This document shows, one piece after another, positions 2,478 through 41,878 of a stretch of DNA of 42,135 nt. The position numbers and the translations under genes are program-made. The DNA comes from an uncultured Oscillospiraceae bacterium (lineage in GTDB: Bacteria; Bacillota; Clostridia; Oscillospirales; Ruminococcaceae): positions 1 through 42,135 of the forward strand of contig CASGAN010000020.1 of assembly GCA_949299455.1 (NCBI GenBank), in the 5' to 3' direction. Below the pieces are notes generated by a model, which was not told the DNA's origin, made no database searches, and worked only from the letters and a program-made list of their open reading frames with translations. Position 1 is the first letter of the stretch, and the number at the start of each line of letters is the position of its first letter.

Positions 2478-3209
2478 CTATGTCTCTCCCTTTCTGTCCG
2501 GCGGCCGGATCATCCGATACCACTGGTACGGGAATCCCGTGACCGGACTGACATCCATATACACGCTGTCCCGCACGATCTGATATCCTTTGACCGGTTT
2601 CGGATCATCTGCCCAGTGTTCCGCGTGAATCACCTGCTTTTTCACCTTTGGTTTACGGAGATTCCGCGAGGCGCTCCACCGTTTTTTATTCGGGCTGTCA
2701 GGCTCGCCGAATGTTTTTGATGTTTCCTTGATGAGATATGCAGCAAGCGCCGCATAGTCTCCGGTATTGTCAAGCTGTACGATCTTCGGACGTCCGTATG
2801 GCCATGCATCCGCAATCAATCCGATATCATGCCGGTTTAGAATGACATGGTGATGGATGGCTGTTCGTTTATATTCTGTGGCGCTGATCCAGCGGAGCTC
2901 CTTTCCTGCTTTTCGATATGCCCGGCGAAGCTTTCCGAAAAACCTGCTCAGTTGTTTTTTTGCTGTTTCCGGCTCCGGTCGTTCTTCCTTTCGGTATGTA
3001 AGCGTAACGTGATAGTCTTTATATCCGAAATTCTCATTGATCAGCAGCCGAAGTTCCCGTTCCGCGATCTGTGCGTTGTACCGCCTAACTGCTTCGGGCG
3101 TTTTGTTCTGGTTCGGCCCGCGTGCGATCTTTTTCCCGTACCTGGCCGAATACGTCTTTGCAACCTCGATCGTGTTTCCGGCAATCCATATCGTTTTGAT
3201 ATAAGGCAC
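2478..3209 (-). CDS. HUH rolling-circle replication initiator
   Basis: A 243-residue protein with the three motifs of HUH endonucleases in order: HVTLTY at residues 67-72, the metal-binding IHHHVIL around H119-H121, and a Tyr motif YAALAAYLIK at 152-161 where Y152 or Y158 would attack the DNA. Such proteins nick one strand at an origin and stay bound to the 5' end while replication or transfer proceeds. The start is GTG, preceded by AAAGGACGGTGAT. It follows a bidirectional terminator, so it probably has its own promoter. No larger relaxase is visible in this part of the element, so the protein may serve replication, mobilisation or both. Confidence 0.75.
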   Translation of the reverse strand: MPYIKTIWIAGNTIEVAKTYSARYGKKIARGPNQNKTPEAVRRYNAQIAERELRLLINENFGYKDYHVTLTYRKEERPEPETAKKQLSRFFGKLRRAYRKAGKELRWISATEYKRTAIHHHVILNRHDIGLIADAWPYGRPKIVQLDNTGDYAALAAYLIKETSKTFGEPDSPNKKRWSASRNLRKPKVKKQVIHAEHWADDPKPVKGYQIVRDSVYMDVSPVTGFPYQWYRMIRPPDRKGET

Positions 3210-3967: not shown

Positions 3968-4179
3968 CTTTTCTCCCTCCGAACAATCGTCAGTCTATCA
4001 AGCAGCATAAACAAAGACATTGCAGTCAGACTCATGCCCACGCCGAGCACAAACAGTGCAGACAGCGGATCAAATGTGCCGACCATCCAGTCGAACAGCA
4101 AAAATCCTGCCGCAAATGCCGCTGCCACCGACAGCAGAAGCCGCACAGCTTGTCCGACAAAGTATGTAATGTGTTTCAT
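3964..4179 (-). CDS. Small membrane protein (71 aa)
   Basis: Starts MKHITYFVGQ and contains two hydrophobic segments (about residues 8-30 and 36-56) joined by a short acidic turn, then a basic cytoplasmic tail. This fits a two-pass inner membrane protein. The start at 4179 is chosen over a longer frame because AGGAGGGG lies 8 bases upstream and its ATG overlaps the previous stop as ATGA. Function unknown; holin-like or transfer-channel roles cannot be told apart. Confidence 0.6.
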   Translation of the reverse strand: MKHITYFVGQAVRLLLSVAAAFAAGFLLFDWMVGTFDPLSALFVLGVGMSLTAMSLFMLLDRLTIVRREKR

Positions 4180-4397
4180 ATCCTGTCCCCTCCTGTTAAC
4201 ATTGCTTTCAGTGCATCCCGATCGATTCGATATAATGCACCGATCCGGACTGCAGGAAGTTTTCCCTCTCTGCATTTCCGACGGACGCTATCTTCTGGAA
4301 TGTCCAACAATGCGGATGTTTCTCCGGTTGTCATCAGCAAAGGAAGCTTGTCCCAGCTGCTGATGATCGGCCGCGGTCGGTTCATGTATCGTTTCAT
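4176..4397 (-). CDS. Excisionase-like helix-turn-helix protein
   Basis: A 73-residue MerR/excisionase-type DNA-binding protein. Residues 22-65 carry the pattern of the family: TTGETSALLDIPEDSVRRK as the helix-turn-helix, then GKLPAVRIG and YRIDRDAL for the wing and the last helix. Such proteins bind att DNA and direct the integrase toward excision, or act as regulators. It has AAGGAGG before the start and is coupled to the membrane-protein gene behind it. As the element has a tyrosine integrase at 7839-8975, this is the best candidate for its directionality factor. Confidence 0.65.
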   Translation of the reverse strand: MKRYMNRPRPIISSWDKLPLLMTTGETSALLDIPEDSVRRKCREGKLPAVRIGALYRIDRDALKAMLTGGDRI

Positions 4398-4418: not shown

Positions 4419-4649
4419 TCAATAAAATTTTAAGATAAACCAGTCATCGGCAATTAAGTCATCAAGTGTTGGTGTCCATTCGCTGATGCTATTTTTCTCT
4501 AAAACCCACACAACACATTTACAGGGTGAATTTGTAGGTTCTATTACGGCCGGAGATAAGCACGGTTCTCTTGTCGTTCTTGCCCATGATTTTCTTGCAA
4601 TGCGCCGGTATTCTGCGTTACATTGTTTTGCTGCTTCAGATAATGTCAT
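4419..4649 (-). CDS. Tad2-like (DUF2829) anti-Thoeris family protein
   Basis: A 76-residue protein with the layout of the DUF2829/Tad2 family: an N-terminal helix leading to RRIARKSWA (the family's VAR-x-GW position) and the C-terminal signature EWTPTLDDLIADDW. Characterised Tad2 proteins of phages bind the cyclic ADP-ribose signals made by Thoeris defence and so block it. Here it lies between excisionase-like and membrane-protein genes in the leftward operon, where anti-defence genes of mobile elements are often found. AAGGGAT precedes the ATG. The family match is by eye. Whether it binds such signals is unknown. Confidence 0.6.
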   Translation of the reverse strand: MTLSEAAKQCNAEYRRIARKSWARTTREPCLSPAVIEPTNSPCKCVVWVLEKNSISEWTPTLDDLIADDWFILKFY

Positions 4650-4669: not shown

Positions 4670-4873
4670 TCACTTCACAAATGAGAAAATCATTGTTTCC
4701 ACCGCAACAAACAGTGAAAAGAAGCTTATGAAAAACCGAATGTCATCGTTTGAATGGAGCGTCAACCGGTGTGGTTTCTTGTCAATCACCCACATGCACA
4801 CAAACGCAGCTATCCATGCCAACAAAAAGTTTCCTGCGGCAATAAGCACGATGAGAGATACCGTTTTCATCAT
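4670..4873 (-). CDS. Small membrane protein (67 aa)
   Basis: Two hydrophobic stretches (about residues 5-28 and 47-65) around a polar loop with KKPHRLTLHSNDD, so probably a two-pass membrane protein. The ATG-ATG start has GGGGGGAG upstream and overlaps the stop of the XRE remnant as ATGA. No family recognised. Confidence 0.55.
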   Translation of the reverse strand: MMKTVSLIVLIAAGNFLLAWIAAFVCMWVIDKKPHRLTLHSNDDIRFFISFFSLFVAVETMIFSFVK

Positions 4874-5001
4874 GGATTCTCCCCCCCTTTTTCAAATAAT
4901 TCGTCGATGGTACACCCGAGCAGCCGTGCAAGCTGCGGAAGCTTGTCCGCACGGGGAAAGCTTGTGCCATTTTCCCACTTTCTCTTTATCCCTTTACGAT
5001 C
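4870..5001 (-). pseudogene. XRE repressor remnant without start, -1 frame to next XRE gene
   Basis: The frame encodes the second half of an XRE domain, including KWENGTSFPRADKLPQLARL and then GCTIDELFEKG, but has no start codon and no first helices. It overlaps the end of the XRE gene at 4986-5183 in the -1 frame. The joint carries AAAGGGA (minus strand, 4995-4989), a perfect X-XXY-YYZ slippery heptamer in the correct phase and directly before the TAA. It is either the scar of recombination between two XRE genes or a frameshift extension. Its stop overlaps the next start as ATGA, showing it was once an ordinary operon member. Confidence 0.6.
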
Positions 5002-5183
5002 TCATCAACCGTGCATCCAAAAAGGTCAGACAGCTCCACTGCCCACGATAATGGCATTGGACGCTTTCCGTGCATCACTCGACTCAGCGCGGCTGCGGAC
5101 ACGCCCAAAACTTCTGCAACGTCTTTCTGCAACATTTTTCTATCCTCATATAATTCGCGGATTCTTTTCCCTAATTCCGTCAT
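4986..5183 (-). CDS. XRE-family regulator (Cro-like)
   Basis: A 65-residue single-domain helix-turn-helix protein: MTELGKRIRELYEDRKMLQ, then DVAEVLGVSAAALSRVMHGK as the DNA-binding helices, and GCTVDEIVKG at the end. It is the first gene of the leftward operon. AAGGAG lies 9 bases before the ATG. It faces the repressor gene at 5341 across a 157-bp control region with a perfect promoter and several inverted repeats, which is the arrangement of a cI/Cro-type switch. The protein may be read on into the adjacent XRE remnant by a -1 frameshift. Confidence 0.75.
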   Translation of the reverse strand: MTELGKRIRELYEDRKMLQKDVAEVLGVSAAALSRVMHGKRPMPLSWAVELSDLFGCTVDEIVKG

Positions 5184-5242
5184 TTTCTCATCTCCTTTTT
5201 TGTCCTTCCCATTGTTTTACACTTCGTTTTATGTTATACTTT

Positions 5243-5258
5243 GGTTAATTAAATAACC
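5243..5258. promoter_or_regulatory. Inverted repeat operator near leftward start point
   Basis: GGTTA-ATTAAA-TAACC lies just downstream of the leftward -10 box, at about the transcription start. Its sequence differs from the ATCTCA operator, so it may be the site of a second regulator such as the Cro-like protein. Confidence 0.45.
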
Positions 5259-5265
5259 TGTATAT

Positions 5266-5294
5266 ATTATATCTCACGAATATGAGATTGTCAA
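5266..5294 (-). promoter_or_regulatory. Leftward operon promoter with operator in its spacer
   Basis: On the minus strand TTGACA (5294-5289), a 17-base spacer and TATAAT (5271-5266) form a perfect consensus promoter. The palindrome ATCTCACGAATATGAGAT (5271-5288) fills the spacer, so a bound repressor would block RNA polymerase. A further half-site, TGTGAGAT, lies around 5314-5321 before the gene at 5341. The likely repressor is the XRE protein of that gene. Confidence 0.8.
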
Positions 5295-5340
5295 CTGTTA
5301 AATTTTATTTTTGTGAGATTTTTATTGAGGAGGATTCGTT

Positions 5341-5715
5341 TTGTTTTGGGATCGTTTTTTTCAATTGTGTGTTTTACATAATTCAAAACCTAACCCCGTC
5401 GCCAAGGAATTAGGTTTTTCATCTGGTGTCGTGACCAAATGGAAAAATGGAAGCATTCCCAACGGCGAAATGCTTTTAAAAATCGCCGATTACTTTGATG
5501 TTTCTGTCGATTACCTGCTCGGCCGTTCCGATTCTCCGGAGATGGATATCAAAAAAGAGGCTGCCCAAATGGACAGCCTCTCAAGAGACGAAAAAGAAAG
5601 CGAAGTTATTCATTTGTACAATCAGCTTTCACCTGCTCGTCAGGAGCGTGCGCTTCTTGCTCTTTATAGAGAAATCGAACAGCAGCGCACAAAAGATCAA
5701 GCTGATCATCACTAA
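5341..5715 (+). CDS. XRE-family repressor (cI-like)
   Basis: A 124-residue protein. Residues 1-62 form an XRE helix-turn-helix (KELGFSSGVVTKWKNGSIP, then VSVDYLLG). The rest is an acidic linker and a helix, VIHLYNQLSPARQERALLAL, typical of small phage and ICE repressors. The start is TTG with AGGAGG 8 bases upstream. It lies opposite the leftward operon and probably represses it at the ATCTCA-N6-TGAGAT operator. There is no visible LexA-type peptidase domain, so repressor cleavage in the SOS response is not expected. Instead, the last 110 bases are overlapped on the other strand by a small gene with a LexA box. Confidence 0.75.
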   Translation: MFWDRFFQLCVLHNSKPNPVAKELGFSSGVVTKWKNGSIPNGEMLLKIADYFDVSVDYLLGRSDSPEMDIKKEAAQMDSLSRDEKESEVIHLYNQLSPARQERALLALYREIEQQRTKDQADHH

Positions 5716-5758
5716 TCTCTCGAACAATTTCTTCAATCTTCTTGTTGCAGGAAATCAT
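5606..5758 (-). CDS. SOS-controlled small protein antisense to the repressor gene (50 aa)
   Basis: A 50-residue open frame (starts MISCNKKIEEIVREISDDQL) with GGGAG 7 bases before its ATG. It overlaps the last 110 bases of the repressor gene on the opposite strand. A near-perfect promoter with a LexA box at its start point drives it. The helical core (IEEIVREISDDQLDLLCAAV) closely resembles the C-terminal helix of the protein at 41672-41878 in the second element (IEKLVHTLNNKQLDTLYQVA). That is good evidence that it is a real protein. A role as an SOS-induced antirepressor, or interference with repressor mRNA by convergent transcription, is inferred. Confidence 0.65.
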   Translation of the reverse strand: MISCNKKIEEIVREISDDQLDLLCAAVRFLYKEQEAHAPDEQVKADCTNE

Positions 5759-5788
5759 ATTCGCACTCCCTTTTTCATCTTTATTTTA

Positions 5789-5837
5789 GAACATCTGTTC
5801 TTTTCTTTATTGTATTACTTTTGCCTTGTTTTGTCAA
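5789..5837 (-). promoter_or_regulatory. Promoter with LexA box
   Basis: Minus strand: TTGACA (5837-5832), 17 bases, TACAAT (5814-5809). The perfect LexA/DinR box GAACATCTGTTC (5789-5800) covers the expected start point. GAAC-N4-GTTC is the consensus known from Bacillus and close to that of Clostridia. The same stretch must also hold the rightward promoter of the triple-XRE gene, for which I see only weak boxes (TTGCCT at 5821). Confidence 0.75.
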
Positions 5838-5865
5838 TATTCATAATTAAAAATTTTATTTTGGA

Positions 5866-6729
5866 GTGGTTTTTATATCGTCGAAGATTAAACAACTTAG
5901 AATAAATGCTGGCTTAACACAAAAACAGCTTGCTGAATATCTTGGCACATCACGTTCGACTGTATCTATGTGGGAAATAGATGCCAGTCAGCCAGATAAC
6001 GATATGCTTATATCCATTTCGAAATTTTTTAACGTTTCAGTTGATTATTTGCTTGGTTGTTCTGATTTATCAAATACAAATATAAAAACTGAATCTCATC
6101 AAATGAACGGCCATAAAGATGATTTTATAAATAGAATCTCTGAACTACGGAAGCAGCACGGTTACAGTCAAGTTTCACTTGGAAAAGCAATAAACCGTGC
6201 ACAAAATACAATTTGCAACTGGGAAAACGGCAATCGAGAACCTGATATCGAAAGTCTTATTCTCCTTTCTTCTCTTTTTGGCGTTTCTATCGACTATTTG
6301 CTTGGTAAAACCAATACTACGCCATCAATCAATACCGAAATCTCTAATTCAAAAATTTTTTCTGAGAATCTAAAAAAGCTTCGACAGTCAAAAGGAGTAT
6401 ATCAAAAAGATATTGCAAATTGGCTTAAGATTGATCGTACTACATATGTAAAATATGAACGCGGACAATCAACTCCTGATTACAATATCCTTCTTAAACT
6501 TGCCGACTATTTTAGTGTTTCTGTTGACTATTTACTCGGTCATTCTGACTCTCAGGTGTTAAATACAAGAAACGAAACGGACAAACGACTTGAAAGCATC
6601 ATAGAAAATTATCAAAAATTAAATGATGCCGGAAAGGACGATCTTGCTAAACATGCTGAGCACCTTACTTACATTCCCGAATATAAAAAAGGTGATTCTA
6701 CTACCAGTGAAAAATCAAAAATAGGCTAA
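5866..6729 (+). CDS. Protein with three tandem XRE domains
   Basis: About 287 residues with three complete XRE helix-turn-helix domains at roughly 6-64, 86-147 and 164-225. Each closes with S[VI]DYLLG, and a helical tail of about 60 residues follows. Most XRE regulators have one such domain and dimerise; three in one chain suggests binding of several half-sites or an asymmetric operator. The gene is clearly more A+T-rich than its neighbours, a sign of separate origin. Start choice is uncertain: GTG at 5866 lies inside the GGAGTGG that looks like the ribosome binding site. By comparison with the gene at 6821 the start would be the in-frame ATA at 5875. Confidence 0.75.
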   Translation: MVFISSKIKQLRINAGLTQKQLAEYLGTSRSTVSMWEIDASQPDNDMLISISKFFNVSVDYLLGCSDLSNTNIKTESHQMNGHKDDFINRISELRKQHGYSQVSLGKAINRAQNTICNWENGNREPDIESLILLSSLFGVSIDYLLGKTNTTPSINTEISNSKIFSENLKKLRQSKGVYQKDIANWLKIDRTTYVKYERGQSTPDYNILLKLADYFSVSVDYLLGHSDSQVLNTRNETDKRLESIIENYQKLNDAGKDDLAKHAEHLTYIPEYKKGDSTTSEKSKIG

Positions 6730-6798
6730 TACAGAAAAATCGACGAGCTGCCGGTCGTGATTCTCGGCAAGGTCGTCGAACTGCGTGCGAAGTTTTAA
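6730..6798 (+). pseudogene. C-terminal gene fragment
   Basis: Directly after the TAA of the triple-XRE gene and in the same frame, 22 codons encode a GC-richer peptide (YRKIDELPVVILGKVVELRA and two more residues) ending at its own TAA. It has no start or ribosome binding site. This looks like the end of a gene whose upstream part was replaced, marking a recombination joint at about 6725. I cannot name the parent family. Confidence 0.5.
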
Positions 6799-6820
6799 AA
6801 TTTATTTTGGAGGGGTTTTT

Positions 6821-7838: not shown

Positions 7839-8975
7839 ATGGCCAGAAAGAGGAATACCGTCCGTGCGGACGGCCGGATCGCAGTGCAGATTTATCTCGG
7901 ACGGGATGAAAGCGGCAAACGAAAGTATAAAACCGTATACGGTGCCACTCAAAAAGAAGCCGATGCAAAAGCAGAAGCAGTAAAAGCGAAAATCGGCAAA
8001 GGCCTTGATATCTTATCTCAGCAGGACACGTTCGGCGCGTGGCGAAAGCTTTGGTGGACCGTAAAGCAGCCGCAGATCGGCAGCGGGACACAAACGATGT
8101 ATCGCGCAGCGCAAAAACGTATGGGACCATTGGACGGCATGGGGATTTCCAAAATCAAAACGGCTGACATTGATGTGTTGTTGATTGCTGCCGCACAAGA
8201 TGGTCTTTCTCATCGAAGTTTGTCTATCCTGCGGATGACGATCGGGCAGATTTTCGACTATGCGATCGATAACCGTGTTGTCGACTATAATCCTGCAGAT
8301 CGGGCGAAAGTGCCCGCCGGAAGCGGAAAGCAGGTGCGTCGAGCGCTTACGGACGAAGAACAAACAATGATTCGCAGTTTGCCCCATCGTGCGCAGACGG
8401 CTGCAATGATCATGATGTATGCCGGATTGCGTCGTGGTGAGTTGCTGGCTCTCACCTGGGATGACATTGATCTGGATGCTTCCACGATCACAGTGAACAA
8501 AACACTCGAATTTGTATCGGGCAAACCTCAAATCAAAAACAGCCCAAAAACGGAATCCGGAAACCGTGTTGTTACCATTCCGGAAATTCTCGCCGAGTAT
8601 TTGCGGAATGTTCCGCATAAGGCGCCGATCGTGTGTCCGAATACCTCTGGAAAATACATGTCGACGACCGCCTGGTCTCGGTTGTGGCAATCCTACATCG
8701 TCGATCTCAATGTAACCTATGGAGCCGCCGCTGGAATGTCAAAACACAATCCACATGGCATCCCGATCAGCATAGATTTCACCGCACACTGTCTCCGGCA
8801 TACCTATGCGACACTTTTGTATAAAGCCGGTGTCGACGTTTTAACAGCGCAGTATCTGCTCGGCCACGCAGACGTACAGACTACTTTAGGCATTTACACG
8901 CACTTAGATGCGGAGTTAAAACAGCGCGGACTGGACAAGCTCAACGATTATTTATCTGATCGAATAAAAGATTGA
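7839..8975 (+). CDS. Tyrosine recombinase (integrase) of element 1
   Basis: A 378-residue phage-type integrase. An N-terminal arm-binding part (YLGRDESGKRKYKTVYGAT) and a SAM-like core-binding domain precede the catalytic domain, whose residues are all present: R198 (YAGLRRGE), H317 and R320 (HCLRHTY), H343 (LGHADVQTT) and the nucleophile Y353 (GIYTHL). It integrates and excises the element at the 3' end of tRNA-Pro. It lies between the cargo and the tRNA, as usual for such elements, and reads toward it. GAGGTGA precedes the ATG. A strong hairpin terminator follows. Two copies of GTGACTTGC (8980-8988, 8992-9000) behind the gene repeat part of the att sequence. Confidence 0.95.
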   Translation: MARKRNTVRADGRIAVQIYLGRDESGKRKYKTVYGATQKEADAKAEAVKAKIGKGLDILSQQDTFGAWRKLWWTVKQPQIGSGTQTMYRAAQKRMGPLDGMGISKIKTADIDVLLIAAAQDGLSHRSLSILRMTIGQIFDYAIDNRVVDYNPADRAKVPAGSGKQVRRALTDEEQTMIRSLPHRAQTAAMIMMYAGLRRGELLALTWDDIDLDASTITVNKTLEFVSGKPQIKNSPKTESGNRVVTIPEILAEYLRNVPHKAPIVCPNTSGKYMSTTAWSRLWQSYIVDLNVTYGAAAGMSKHNPHGIPISIDFTAHCLRHTYATLLYKAGVDVLTAQYLLGHADVQTTLGIYTHLDAELKQRGLDKLNDYLSDRIKD

Positions 8976-9115: not shown

Positions 9116-9185
9116 TTGGTCGGAGTAACGTGACTTGAACACGCGGCCTCTTGGTCGGAGTAACGTGACTTGAACACGCGGCCTC
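9116..9185. repeat. Tandem 35-bp att repeat (tRNA-Pro 3' end)
   Basis: A 35-bp unit is present twice without a gap (9116-9150 and 9151-9185), with three further matching bases. The right copy is the 3' part of tRNA-Pro including CCA; the left is a second copy on the element side. It marks the attachment site of element 1. The other end of the element lies left of the window. Confidence 0.85.
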
Positions 9186-9227
9186 TTGACCCCCAGTCAA
9201 GCGCGCTACCAGCTGCGCCATACCCCG
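9152..9227 (-). tRNA. tRNA-Pro(GGG)
   Basis: A 76-base cloverleaf with acceptor CGGGGTA/TACTCCG, discriminator A and encoded CCA. The anticodon loop CTGGGGG gives GGG (Pro) on the stem CTTGA/TCAAG. Its 3' half is duplicated next to it by the integrated element. Confidence 0.92.
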
Positions 9228-38760: not shown

Positions 38761-39921
38761 TTATGAAAGCTTGTGCCCGAGTGCCACGGCGAACAGGTCT
38801 GACACCGCTCGAGCGCGTGAAAAGGTGTGTGCGTAAATGTTCATTGTCGTGCTCACCTGTGAATGCCCGAGTTCAAGCGAAGCCGTTTTCGGATCGATGC
38901 CGCCCATAATCAAAACAGTTGCGTGAAAATGCCGGAACATATGCACCCCGTAATACGGGAGATCATGCCGCTCACAGAACCGTTTCAGCCAGCTGTTGAT
39001 AGCTGTTGCCTGAAGCGGCTCGCCCAGATCGTTGACGAACACCAGACCGGCTTCACGCGTGCCTTTTCTCTCCTGTTCCGCTTCCAGTACGGAGAGAACC
39101 GTGAAAACATCCTCACTGCACATGACGGTTCGTTTTGACTGATCTGTTTTCGGATCATCAAAGAATTTTCCTGTTTCCGGCGTGTAGGAAAGCGCCTGTT
39201 CAACCGAGATCAGATGCCGGGCATAGTCAACGTCACACCACCGAAGCCCGAGCATTTCCCCGCTGCGGAATCCGGTGTAAACCGCAACATAGAAAAACGC
39301 GCGGTATTTTGCAGAAACTTTCGGATCGGTGTCGAGCGCCGAAAGAAACCGTTCCATTTCATCCTGTGTATAGATTTTCTTTTCTGACTGTTTGATTTTC
39401 GGCTTTATCACGCTGTCACACGGGTTTGATTGTATGATTCCCTGCTGAACGGCATAGGAAAGCACCTCAGACAAAAACGAAATATAGTTCCGGATAGTTT
39501 TGTTTGTGAACGCTTCCCCGGTTCGCGGGTTCGCTCCCGGCTGTGCCATGGCTGTGACAAACTGCTGAATCTTCCGCGCCGTCAGCTTCCCGAGCGGCAC
39601 ATGGCCGAGCGCCGGAAAAATGCGTTTTGTGAAATCGCGGTAACTCTTGACCGTCCTCGTTTTCAGTTTGATGGGCGCAATTTCGCGCAAATAGGTTTCG
39701 CAGAACGCTTGAAACTTGACGTTTTTCACCGGTGTTTTGCCTTTACACTGGGATTCAAACAAAACAATTTCCCTTTGCAGATCCTTTTCGTTCTGGGCTT
39801 TGGTCTTGTTCGGGTCAGGATGCCATGTTTTGGCGTGTACAATCGGCTTGCCGTTCGCGTCCAGACCGTCAGAAACAAAAATACGCACATTCCCGTTCTT
39901 ATAAGGTTTAGTCCATGCCAT
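38761..39921 (-). CDS. Tyrosine recombinase (integrase) of element 2
   Basis: 386 residues. A SAM-like core-binding domain is at about 65-165. The catalytic residues are R219 (TGFRSGEMLG), H327 and R330 (HMFRHFHA), H353 (LGHSQVSTT) and Y363 (NIYAHTF). The start at 39921 has GGGGTG upstream. It is 24 bp behind the repressor gene and convergent with the capsid gene. The att site with phased repeats lies 2.9 kb away, beyond the capsid genes, not directly beside it as is usual. Confidence 0.94.
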   Translation of the reverse strand: MAWTKPYKNGNVRIFVSDGLDANGKPIVHAKTWHPDPNKTKAQNEKDLQREIVLFESQCKGKTPVKNVKFQAFCETYLREIAPIKLKTRTVKSYRDFTKRIFPALGHVPLGKLTARKIQQFVTAMAQPGANPRTGEAFTNKTIRNYISFLSEVLSYAVQQGIIQSNPCDSVIKPKIKQSEKKIYTQDEMERFLSALDTDPKVSAKYRAFFYVAVYTGFRSGEMLGLRWCDVDYARHLISVEQALSYTPETGKFFDDPKTDQSKRTVMCSEDVFTVLSVLEAEQERKGTREAGLVFVNDLGEPLQATAINSWLKRFCERHDLPYYGVHMFRHFHATVLIMGGIDPKTASLELGHSQVSTTMNIYAHTFSRARAVSDLFAVALGHKLS

Positions 39922-39945
39922 TACAAGCACCCCGCTTTTTTAGTT

Positions 39946-40476
39946 TTAATCACGCGAAAAATATCTTTCTATCAAGTCACCGTTAAAACAATCATCAGAA
40001 AGTTTGAAACTGTCTATATTCTCTAAAAACCAGTCGCAGCGGTTCATACATCGTTTGACCTCATGCAATATATAATCTTTTGCATATGGATGAAGCGGCG
40101 ATAAATCTTCACTAAACATATCGAAATAAATCCCTTTTTGCTCCGCTTTCATTGAGATTGCATTTAACTGCTTTGAAAAATCTCTTATCATAAATGAAAT
40201 TTCGGGAAATGATAAATATTTTTTATCGGGAGCAGGTTCAGAAGCGCGTTCCATTCGATTCGATATACCCAAAAGCCAATCAAGAGAAATATTAAAATAT
40301 GATGCAATAGAAACTAACGTGCGGATGTCCGGCTCTCTCGTTCCTGTTTCATATCCACTAACTGTGCGAGTAGAAATGTTCACACCCGTTATTTCAGATA
40401 ATTTATGCGCAAGCTGTTCTTGCGTCATAGATGAATTTTGTCGAAGTTCTCGAAGTCTTGTTCCTACAACATTCAT
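39946..40476 (-). CDS. cI-like XRE repressor of element 2
   Basis: 176 residues. An XRE domain covers 1-70 (LRELRQNSSMTQEQLAHKLS, then VSGYETGTREPDI and ISLDWLLG). A helical C-terminal domain without a peptidase motif follows. The start at 40476 is set by GGTGGTGAT. It is divergent from a Cro-like gene across a 126-bp control region that has three similar operators, one in its own promoter, so it should repress both sides. Confidence 0.8.
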   Translation of the reverse strand: MNVVGTRLRELRQNSSMTQEQLAHKLSEITGVNISTRTVSGYETGTREPDIRTLVSIASYFNISLDWLLGISNRMERASEPAPDKKYLSFPEISFMIRDFSKQLNAISMKAEQKGIYFDMFSEDLSPLHPYAKDYILHEVKRCMNRCDWFLENIDSFKLSDDCFNGDLIERYFSRD

Positions 40477-40507
40477 AACATCACCACCAAATTTATAATA
40501 GCGGAAT

Positions 40508-40585
40508 GGAACAAAATGCGCAATAGATATTGACAAATAGAGCGAAATGAGCTATAATCCAATTAAACAACAGCTCATTTTGAGC
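40508..40585. promoter_or_regulatory. cI/Cro control region with three operators
   Basis: Rightward promoter: TTGACA (40530-40535), 17 bases, TATAAT (40553-40558), perfect. Leftward: TTGCGC, 17 bases, TATTAT. Operator copies related to AGCTCATTTTGAGC lie at 40508-40521, 40540-40553 (both as complements) and 40572-40585. The first lies in the leftward promoter, the second overlaps the rightward -10 and spacer, the third is downstream. Confidence 0.75.
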
Positions 40586-41654: not shown

Positions 41655-41671
41655 GAAAAGAGGTGCTTTTC

Positions 41672-41878
41672 ATGCTATATAGAATCTGTCCAAACTGCGG
41701 CGCTGCGCTCGATCCGGGCGAAACGTGCGACTGCACAAAAGAAAAACAGCAATCAAGGCCGCAGACAAGCAACATTGAAAAGCTTGTCCACACGCTGAAC
41801 AACAAGCAGCTTGATACACTATACCAAGTTGCAAAGGCGTTGTGCGAAGAACAAAGACGCTATCAAAAATACACTTGA
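41672..41878 (+). CDS. Zinc-ribbon protein with shared helical module
   Basis: 68 residues. An N-terminal zinc-binding part has C6, C9, C18 and C20 (CPNC, CDC). The C-terminal helix includes IEKLVHTLNNKQLDTLYQVA. This helix matches the core of the 50-residue SOS-controlled protein at 5606-5758 in element 1 at many positions. Similar short helices occur in small proteins near phage repressors. AGAGGTG precedes the ATG. Last gene before a terminator. Confidence 0.6.
   Translation: MLYRICPNCGAALDPGETCDCTKEKQQSRPQTSNIEKLVHTLNNKQLDTLYQVAKALCEEQRRYQKYT

Follow-up and report, generated by a model that had tools for sequence, protein, structure and literature searches.

A candidate SOS-controlled antirepressor microprotein gene facing the repressor of a mobile element in an uncultured Oscillospiraceae bacterium

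Results

A boxed microprotein gene opposite the end of an XRE repressor gene

Our study concerns a mobile element found in a 42,135-nucleotide stretch of DNA (the window, that is, the whole stretch analyzed) from an uncultured Oscillospiraceae bacterium (assembly GCA_949299455.1, contig CASGAN010000020.1). In this element, a microprotein gene of 50 codons on the minus strand (5606-5758, ATG at 5758) faces the 3' end of the XRE repressor gene (5341-5715, plus strand; 124 residues, TTG start, Pfam HTH_3 at 7.6e-8). On balance, we favor the view that this frame is a real gene and that its product is an SOS-controlled antirepressor acting on the C-terminal hairpin of the repressor, an interpretation drawn from sequence and analogy; the unit is probably the trigger that releases the element. 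Its anatomy can be observed directly in the DNA. A promoter with 11 of 12 matches (5809-5837, minus strand; TTGACA at 5837-5832, a 17-nucleotide spacer, and TACAAT at 5814-5809) is followed by a LexA-type box, GAACAGATGTTC (GAAC-N4-GTTC; 5789-5800, minus strand), located over the expected start point, and by a ribosome binding site, GGGAG (5767-5771, minus strand), read from the sequence 8 nucleotides ahead of the ATG. The frame covers the final 110 nucleotides of the XRE gene on the opposite strand, and 23 nucleotides past its stop there is an intrinsic terminator (5555-5582, minus strand; 12 base pairs and a T run, -21.5 kcal/mol) that sits within the repressor coding sequence, under linker codons 72-81. 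With the terminator behind its stop, the transcript of the microprotein gene should be a closed unit of about 250 nucleotides, expected to end short of the repressor promoter. A preliminary description, made from the letters of this DNA, had proposed the promoter, the box, the ribosome binding site and the 50-residue frame opposite the repressor end, and all of them are present; it had also described the repressor as devoid of a self-cleaving domain, which agrees with the absence of Peptidase_S24 among the five Pfam rows of the 124-residue protein. The terminator comes in addition to the features listed in that description.

GAACAGATGTTC is the sole GAACN4GTTC in the window. The box alone is not significant, as it is expected 0.82 times at the window composition and is present in 55 of 100 shuffles, and no genome-wide enrichment was found in the host's own genome (20 sites per strand vs 26 for the reversed pattern). 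The box and the promoter together are improbable by chance: none of 300 dinucleotide shuffles contained a box together with a promoter that scored at least 11/12 and had its -10 no more than 30 nucleotides away, and 2 of the 300 did when the promoter was allowed to score 10/12.

The host lexA gene exceeds the NCBIfam cut-off, and its own promoter carries CGAACATGTGTTTG. Two host genes pass the curated lexA cut-off; upstream of the better-scoring one the DNA reads TTGACAAACACATGTTCGTTCTTGTATAAT, which contains AAACACATGTTC, one mismatch away from GAACN4GTTC. In our own tally of 297 genomes of the family, GAACN4GTTC followed within 0-2 nucleotides by TATAAT occurs in 45 places, compared with 13 for the reversed pattern, and some of the box promoters of the family precede genes for dinB-like polymerases and for a radical-SAM, repair-like protein (named by eye). 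With a self-boxed lexA in the host and boxed dinB-like genes in the family, the LexA box and SOS control put forward in the preliminary description are plausible for the microprotein promoter, and the gene is apparently switched on by DNA damage. Of the host's matches L105, L106 and L107, two are LexA homologues that pass the curated cut-off and the third falls short of it.

Recurrence of the convergent layout

For the survey, a module was defined as a LexA-box promoter, a frame of 30-60 codons and a tail-to-tail XRE gene with its stop within 420 nucleotides of the box; the window unit fits this definition in its box promoter, its frame length and the distance to the XRE stop. A site was scored as facing when an XRE gene convergent to it had its stop within 20-420 nucleotides. 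In all the counts that follow, the surveyed loci are mutually related and were partly chosen by the features tested, and some genes were named by eye. In the family genomes, 9 of 47 box promoters (both G106 sites, in overlapping loci, being counted twice) face an XRE gene, compared with 3.06% of random positions (p 1.1e-5), a control rate that is inflated, given that each family locus spans little more than the surroundings of its site. The viral contigs of IMG/VR gave 9 of 75 box-promoter sites (0.89% at random; p 2.6e-8) and, when the box was required together with a ribosome binding site and an ATG, 4 of 120 sites among the matches listed (0.71% at random; p 0.011). The recurrence of both the pair and the box is a direct observation. 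One of the nine family sites belongs to a second mobile element in the same genome (L100/L127, contig C18:1914-4925), which has the same layout, with the promoter CGAACAAGTGTTCTATAAT, a frame of 34 codons and a terminator, followed by the XRE gene on the opposite strand.

The recurring small genes have about 30-60 codons, and most of their products have in common a sequence pattern of two amphipathic helices; the microprotein of L110/L111 appears as one long helix. Identical proteins are found in the Oscillospiraceae metagenome-assembled genome (MAG) RGIG8500, in Ruminococcus sp. Marseille-P6503, in the Clostridia MAG BRZ_CE__bin104 and in the Ruminococcus MAG E13__bin35. In the genome-contig set, the 4 convergent matches out of 74 encode proteins identical to those of the family set and contribute names only, with no new evidence.

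The preliminary description had regarded relatives that keep the repressor end and break the antisense frame as evidence against it. To some extent such relatives exist: the repressor search yielded 29 family loci, of which L085 alone carries a box (at most one mismatch) in a position suited to a convergent gene, and of 58 viral relatives no more than two, L004 and L008, have a perfect box at a distance of up to 2.5 kb, the one in L008 serving a different gene, oriented as the repressor. The rarity of the module among the nearest relatives indicates that it is not fixed to this repressor lineage, and the layout recurs elsewhere. In L008 (3393-3944), the box GAACATATGTTC lies right behind the XRE repressor and is followed by a co-directional ImmA-type metallopeptidase-like gene (identified by eye), which is perhaps another SOS route to the removal of a repressor. 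For the window, too, a co-directional ImmA-type protease was considered as the target of SOS control; it was rejected, as nothing similar follows the window box.

Similarity between microproteins and the tails of their repressors

The AlphaFold2 models predict two helices in both window proteins. The microprotein is modeled as a two-helix hairpin (residues 4-14 and 17-37) with a mean predicted local distance difference test score (pLDDT) of 79.6, reaching 94 at residues 11-30, and the repressor as a helix-turn-helix domain with a two-helix C-terminal tail (residues 82-94 and 98-123); residues 69-80, with pLDDT below 50, are linker-like. The microproteins and the repressor tails of 20 pairs were examined together. 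Scored against the last 50 residues of its own repressor, each microprotein contributed to a sum of 544, compared with 460 in permutations (standard deviation 25; p 0.0012). The mean score was 27.2 with the own tail, 22.8 with foreign tails, 22.0 with the rest of the own repressor and 20.1 with shuffles; L317 attained 56 in this set.

A broader analysis compared every facing open frame of at least 24 residues with the repressor tail at 131 XRE loci. The own-tail sum was 3242 versus 2960 (standard deviation 43.5), a value reached by 0 of 20,000 permutations, a count that is no exact probability given that the loci come partly from the box and repressor searches and include relatives. Five scores were at least 42, where 0.24 were expected. 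The top matches are L153 (ELFRFLSDQQQEEIIEKIKALLS vs ELFSLLSDPEKDMIIRQIKGLLS), L280, L148, L365 and L080, of which L153 and L080 are without a box and L280 has a box with one mismatch (by eye). The similarity between microprotein and tail is an observed property of the family as a whole.

In genome G139, two loci (L123 on C31 and L347 on C6) have a microprotein gene and an intergenic region that are identical at the DNA level; the last 49 residues of their repressors are identical as well, and the helix-turn-helix and operator halves differ. The likeness to the own tail, together with the tail shared by the G139 pair, suggests that the microprotein acts on the repressor tail, by analogy with the action of SinI on SinR. 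The two G139 elements look as though their immunity half had been swapped.

A profile search independent of the box

Profile A2, built from ten microproteins, was run on 297 family and 391 class genomes, counting the rows with an E-value of 1e-4 or better outside the places used to build it. It recovered ten further places (L347, L350, L351, L363, L364, L365, L366, L367, L368 and L369), the L347 protein being that of the profile member L123. A perfect box lies upstream in three of them (L364, L365 and L369) and a one-mismatch box in L347, with none in the other six; in L365 the box apparently follows the -10, which is also the arrangement of the window. An XRE gene is faced in six places (L347, L350, L364, L365, L366 and L367) and is not in four. 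Of ten weaker rows, L360 and L352 were read and the eight others were left out; L360 (0.0145) faces an XRE gene and is without a box. From the boxes present in some of these matches and missing in others, SOS control appears as common and not universal among the microproteins, and the context of L351 and L363 indicates that some relatives live in ordinary operons. Words of the TTGTCGA type were noted by eye upstream of L350 and L360. Profile A2 retrieved 9 rows from the PDB up to E 10, the best being two designed helical repeat proteins (0.0024), with no SinI chain among them, and the PHROG rows for 17 microproteins were weak, the best (0.0011) being phrog_19640, of unknown function.

Discussion

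Proposed mechanism

The mechanism that we propose is as follows. In an undamaged cell, LexA would sit on the box and block the promoter. DNA damage would lead to LexA cleavage and to a transcript of about 250 nucleotides, running from about 5802 to 5550 and ending at the terminator in the linker codons. The two-helix microprotein translated from it would pair with the two helices at the C-terminal end of the XRE repressor, which may disrupt repressor dimers or tetramers and free the leftward promoter, with its Cro-like, Tad2-like, HTH_17 and Rep genes. In this way, the microprotein gene would link a repressor that has no self-cleaving domain to the SOS response. Of these steps, we infer the binding of LexA, the translation of the frame, the binding to the repressor and the induction.

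It is important to consider the observations that weigh against this proposal. The nearest relatives of the repressor mostly carry no module. No homologue of the window protein was found in 100 relatives (E 0.01), in the viral contigs or in the genome contigs, nor any match in phages (tblastn, E 1); it has no Pfam (0.1), PHROG or PADLOC row, and its single NCBIfam row (E 0.026) is far under the cut-off. A profile of 14 microproteins did not retrieve it among 90 rows, with E-values up to 50, from 3,805 small frames, although this profile covers its own set incompletely, 3 of the 14 members failing the leave-one-out at 0.01, and a search of the own genome with profile A2 gave no row at 0.05. The similarity to the own tail that was expected for the window was rejected, its score of 24 being reached by 778 of 2000 shuffles. 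Convergent microprotein-XRE pairs exist without a box (L350, L360, L366, L367, L080 and L153), and L351 and L363 lie in operons that face no repressor. For the window itself, the antirepressor reading draws on the layout, the box, the terminator and analogy.

Weighing the alternative explanations

The preliminary description had offered two mechanisms, an antirepressor protein and transcriptional interference or antisense RNA. According to the latter, the SOS transcript would itself reduce repressor expression, either through collision or because it pairs with the 3' 160 nucleotides of the repressor mRNA. The window has the geometry for it, with 110 nucleotides of frame overlap and about 160 nucleotides up to the terminator, and 9 of 20 pairs, made up of 19 distinct loci and the window, have a small frame that overlaps the repressor gene; in the other 11, however, it ends before the repressor stop, several of them having a terminator between the two genes, which means that the antisense overlap is not the shared property. 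From these 20 pairs L111, L149 and L299 were dropped as near copies of L110, L148 and L296, and L124 (same place as L085) was retained as it is, with a frame that has no clear start codon and is maybe broken. Terminator-like hairpins lie behind the small gene in 17 of the 20 pairs (-7.3 to -27.5 kcal/mol, 14 of them at -14 or better), and of the 9 pairs with an overlap, 7 have the hairpin inside the repressor gene (that of L164 is weak), a laxer scan adding L148 and L222. The window transcript should accordingly stop inside the 3' half of the repressor gene, and with a terminator there RNA polymerase is not expected to reach the repressor promoter. The tail similarity across loci also favors a protein, as does selection at the codon level: in the comparison of L110 with L111, 11 of 41 codons differ silently and 8 are changed (nonsynonymous divergence, dN, 0.10; synonymous divergence, dS, 1.12), and 5 of the 8 changes fall within the last 13 codons. 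Further observations weigh against our proposal. The two remaining codon comparisons involve sequences too similar to be informative, L366/L367 shows 0 silent and 3 changed codons, and antisense terminators of at least -15 kcal/mol in strength are only moderately more frequent among module genes (6 of 18, L198 and L317 being outside the filters of the scan, vs 10 of 105 other XRE genes; Fisher p 0.014). As a whole, we consider interference or antisense RNA quite unlikely; the pairing recurs, the antirepressor protein is the better of the two proposed mechanisms, and the antisense overlap as the trigger was not upheld. The ten non-module XRE genes with antisense hairpins are those of L054, L059, L065, L080, L081, L084, L086, L153, L157 and L269, among which we judge L080, L153 and L269, after the fact, to be box-less modules.

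Another explanation accepts a real SOS microprotein and assigns it a different job, as a repressor stabilizer, a co-repressor, a cell-division inhibitor or a protein with a host target, with its neighborhood reflecting economical packing. It finds support in the window microprotein and the repressor tail being unlike in sequence, and in related hairpin proteins that occur away from a repressor, in the operons of L351 and L363 and at the end of a zinc-ribbon protein (41663-41878, plus strand), whose C-terminal hairpin the window microprotein resembles (score 47, reached by 0 of 2000 shuffles). The tail-to-tail pairing with XRE genes above the random rate and the tail similarity across loci argue against it, and we regard this explanation as unlikely. 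It is also conceivable that the window frame is fortuitous, an untranslated open frame behind a box and a promoter that arose by chance in an AT-rich gap, for which the expected frequency of the box alone and the lack of a homologue could be invoked. The absence of the combined promoter and box from all 300 shuffles, the ribosome binding site, the terminator right past the stop and the same layout on another element of the same genome make this very improbable. The zinc-ribbon protein belongs to the early region of a second, neighboring prophage (integrase at 38761-39930, XRE gene at 39946-40536).

Relation to known systems

Tum of coliphage 186 is an SOS-regulated antirepressor, and AntC of N15 is reportedly another, to judge by the title of a paper on it; the place and size of their genes presumably differ from those of the window gene. 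For the systems compared below, our statements are limited to the parts of the source texts that were consulted. The Gifsy antirepressors GfoA, GfhA and GftA are small LexA-controlled proteins that bind and disable non-cleavable repressors, and a single antirepressor can act on repressors whose operators differ (Lemire et al. 2011, PMC3121763). The antirepressor proposed here would share with them the LexA-type control and a repressor without an S24 domain, and the G139 pair suggests a similar case of one antirepressor for differing operators. It is set apart, by description, in that the gene is convergent to the repressor gene and frequently overlaps its 3' end, in that the elements belong to Clostridia, and in that many of the microproteins resemble the repressor tail. 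A parallel for this resemblance is SinI of Bacillus subtilis, a hook of two helices; some of its residues are conserved in the corresponding C-terminal hook of SinR, an XRE-type repressor, with which it forms a heterodimer without DNA binding (PMC3163267). In our set as a whole the microproteins resemble the repressor tails, and two helices are predicted in both window proteins, the window pair being unlike in sequence; SinI differs in that it is under Spo0A and acts on biofilm genes (PMC3163267). When ten microproteins other than that of the window were compared with the Pfam SinI models, no row was obtained at E 1.

In the prophage modules that pair a transcription factor with a small open reading frame (TF-smORF), the smORF inactivates the repressor, and the modules share little sequence similarity (Silpe et al. 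2023, PMC10432266). A phage-encoded small frame directed against a repressor and the low similarity among modules would be common to both systems, whereas the TF-smORF modules are run by a phage transcription factor independent of DNA damage and their smORF is divergent from the factor gene (PMC10432266). Small LexA-controlled antirepressors (Gifsy) and SOS-independent smORFs that inactivate repressors (in polylysogens) are already known. Among the matches listed in our literature search, which covered titles and abstract openings and few subscription journals, there was no SOS antirepressor convergent or antisense to its repressor and shaped like its tail.

In many Clostridia elements the XRE repressor is short and contains no self-cleaving domain, and to our knowledge the route by which DNA damage reaches such repressors is often unknown. 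We put forward a wider proposal, which we hold to be as open to failure as to success: Clostridia and their phages would contain a broad, undescribed class of SOS microproteins, each a separate protein that mimics the C-terminal oligomerization hairpin of the repressor whose gene faces its own. Together the genes would form a compact shared cassette, in which the microprotein may be antisense to the tail codons and the terminator may lie in the linker codons, and the DNA-binding half and operators could be swapped while the tail and the antirepressor travel together. If this is true, a recognizable two-gene cassette with a LexA box would explain the sensing of damage in part of the Clostridia elements and would predict which of them respond to genotoxic agents. 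It would also offer testable pairs, with the repressor tail as the target and the microprotein as the ligand, and the double coding, with an antirepressor frame over the tail and a terminator in the linker, would be an unusual overlapping function in DNA.

Setting of the element

The leftward operon of the element is preceded by a promoter with 12 of 12 matches (TTGACA-17-TATAAT; 5266-5294, minus strand), whose spacer contains a perfect palindrome, TCTCACGAATATGAGA (5272-5287; TCTCA-N6-TGAGA), likely the operator of the repressor. No match to CGAACRNNYGTTCG was found in the own genome, an Rfam scan of 4800-6800 gave no match, and the repressor has no relatives in the PDB at 0.001. The first gene of the operon, divergent from the repressor gene, encodes a Cro-like XRE protein of 65 residues (4986-5183, minus strand; HTH_31 at 1e-9). 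It is followed on the same strand by genes for a Tad2-like protein with a Thoeris anti-defence 2-like domain (4419-4649; Pfam, 5e-8), an HTH_17 protein (4176-4397; Pfam, 1.3e-11) that its size and position mark as excisionase-like, and a replication initiation protein of the REP_ORF2-G2P type (2478-3209; phrog_3584, 7.1e-60). Downstream of the repressor, on the plus strand, lies a gene for a protein with three tandem XRE helix-turn-helix domains (5866-6729; Pfam), in which a clear start codon is wanting behind the ribosome site. The tyrosine integrase of the element (7839-8975, plus strand) adjoins a tRNA-Pro gene (9152-9227), and the two mark one end of the element; since the window is the whole contig, the left end may be missing. 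The 3' end of the tRNA-Pro gene occurs as a tandem duplication at 9116-9197 (47-nucleotide copies with a period of 35 nucleotides), which is probably the scar of an attachment site.
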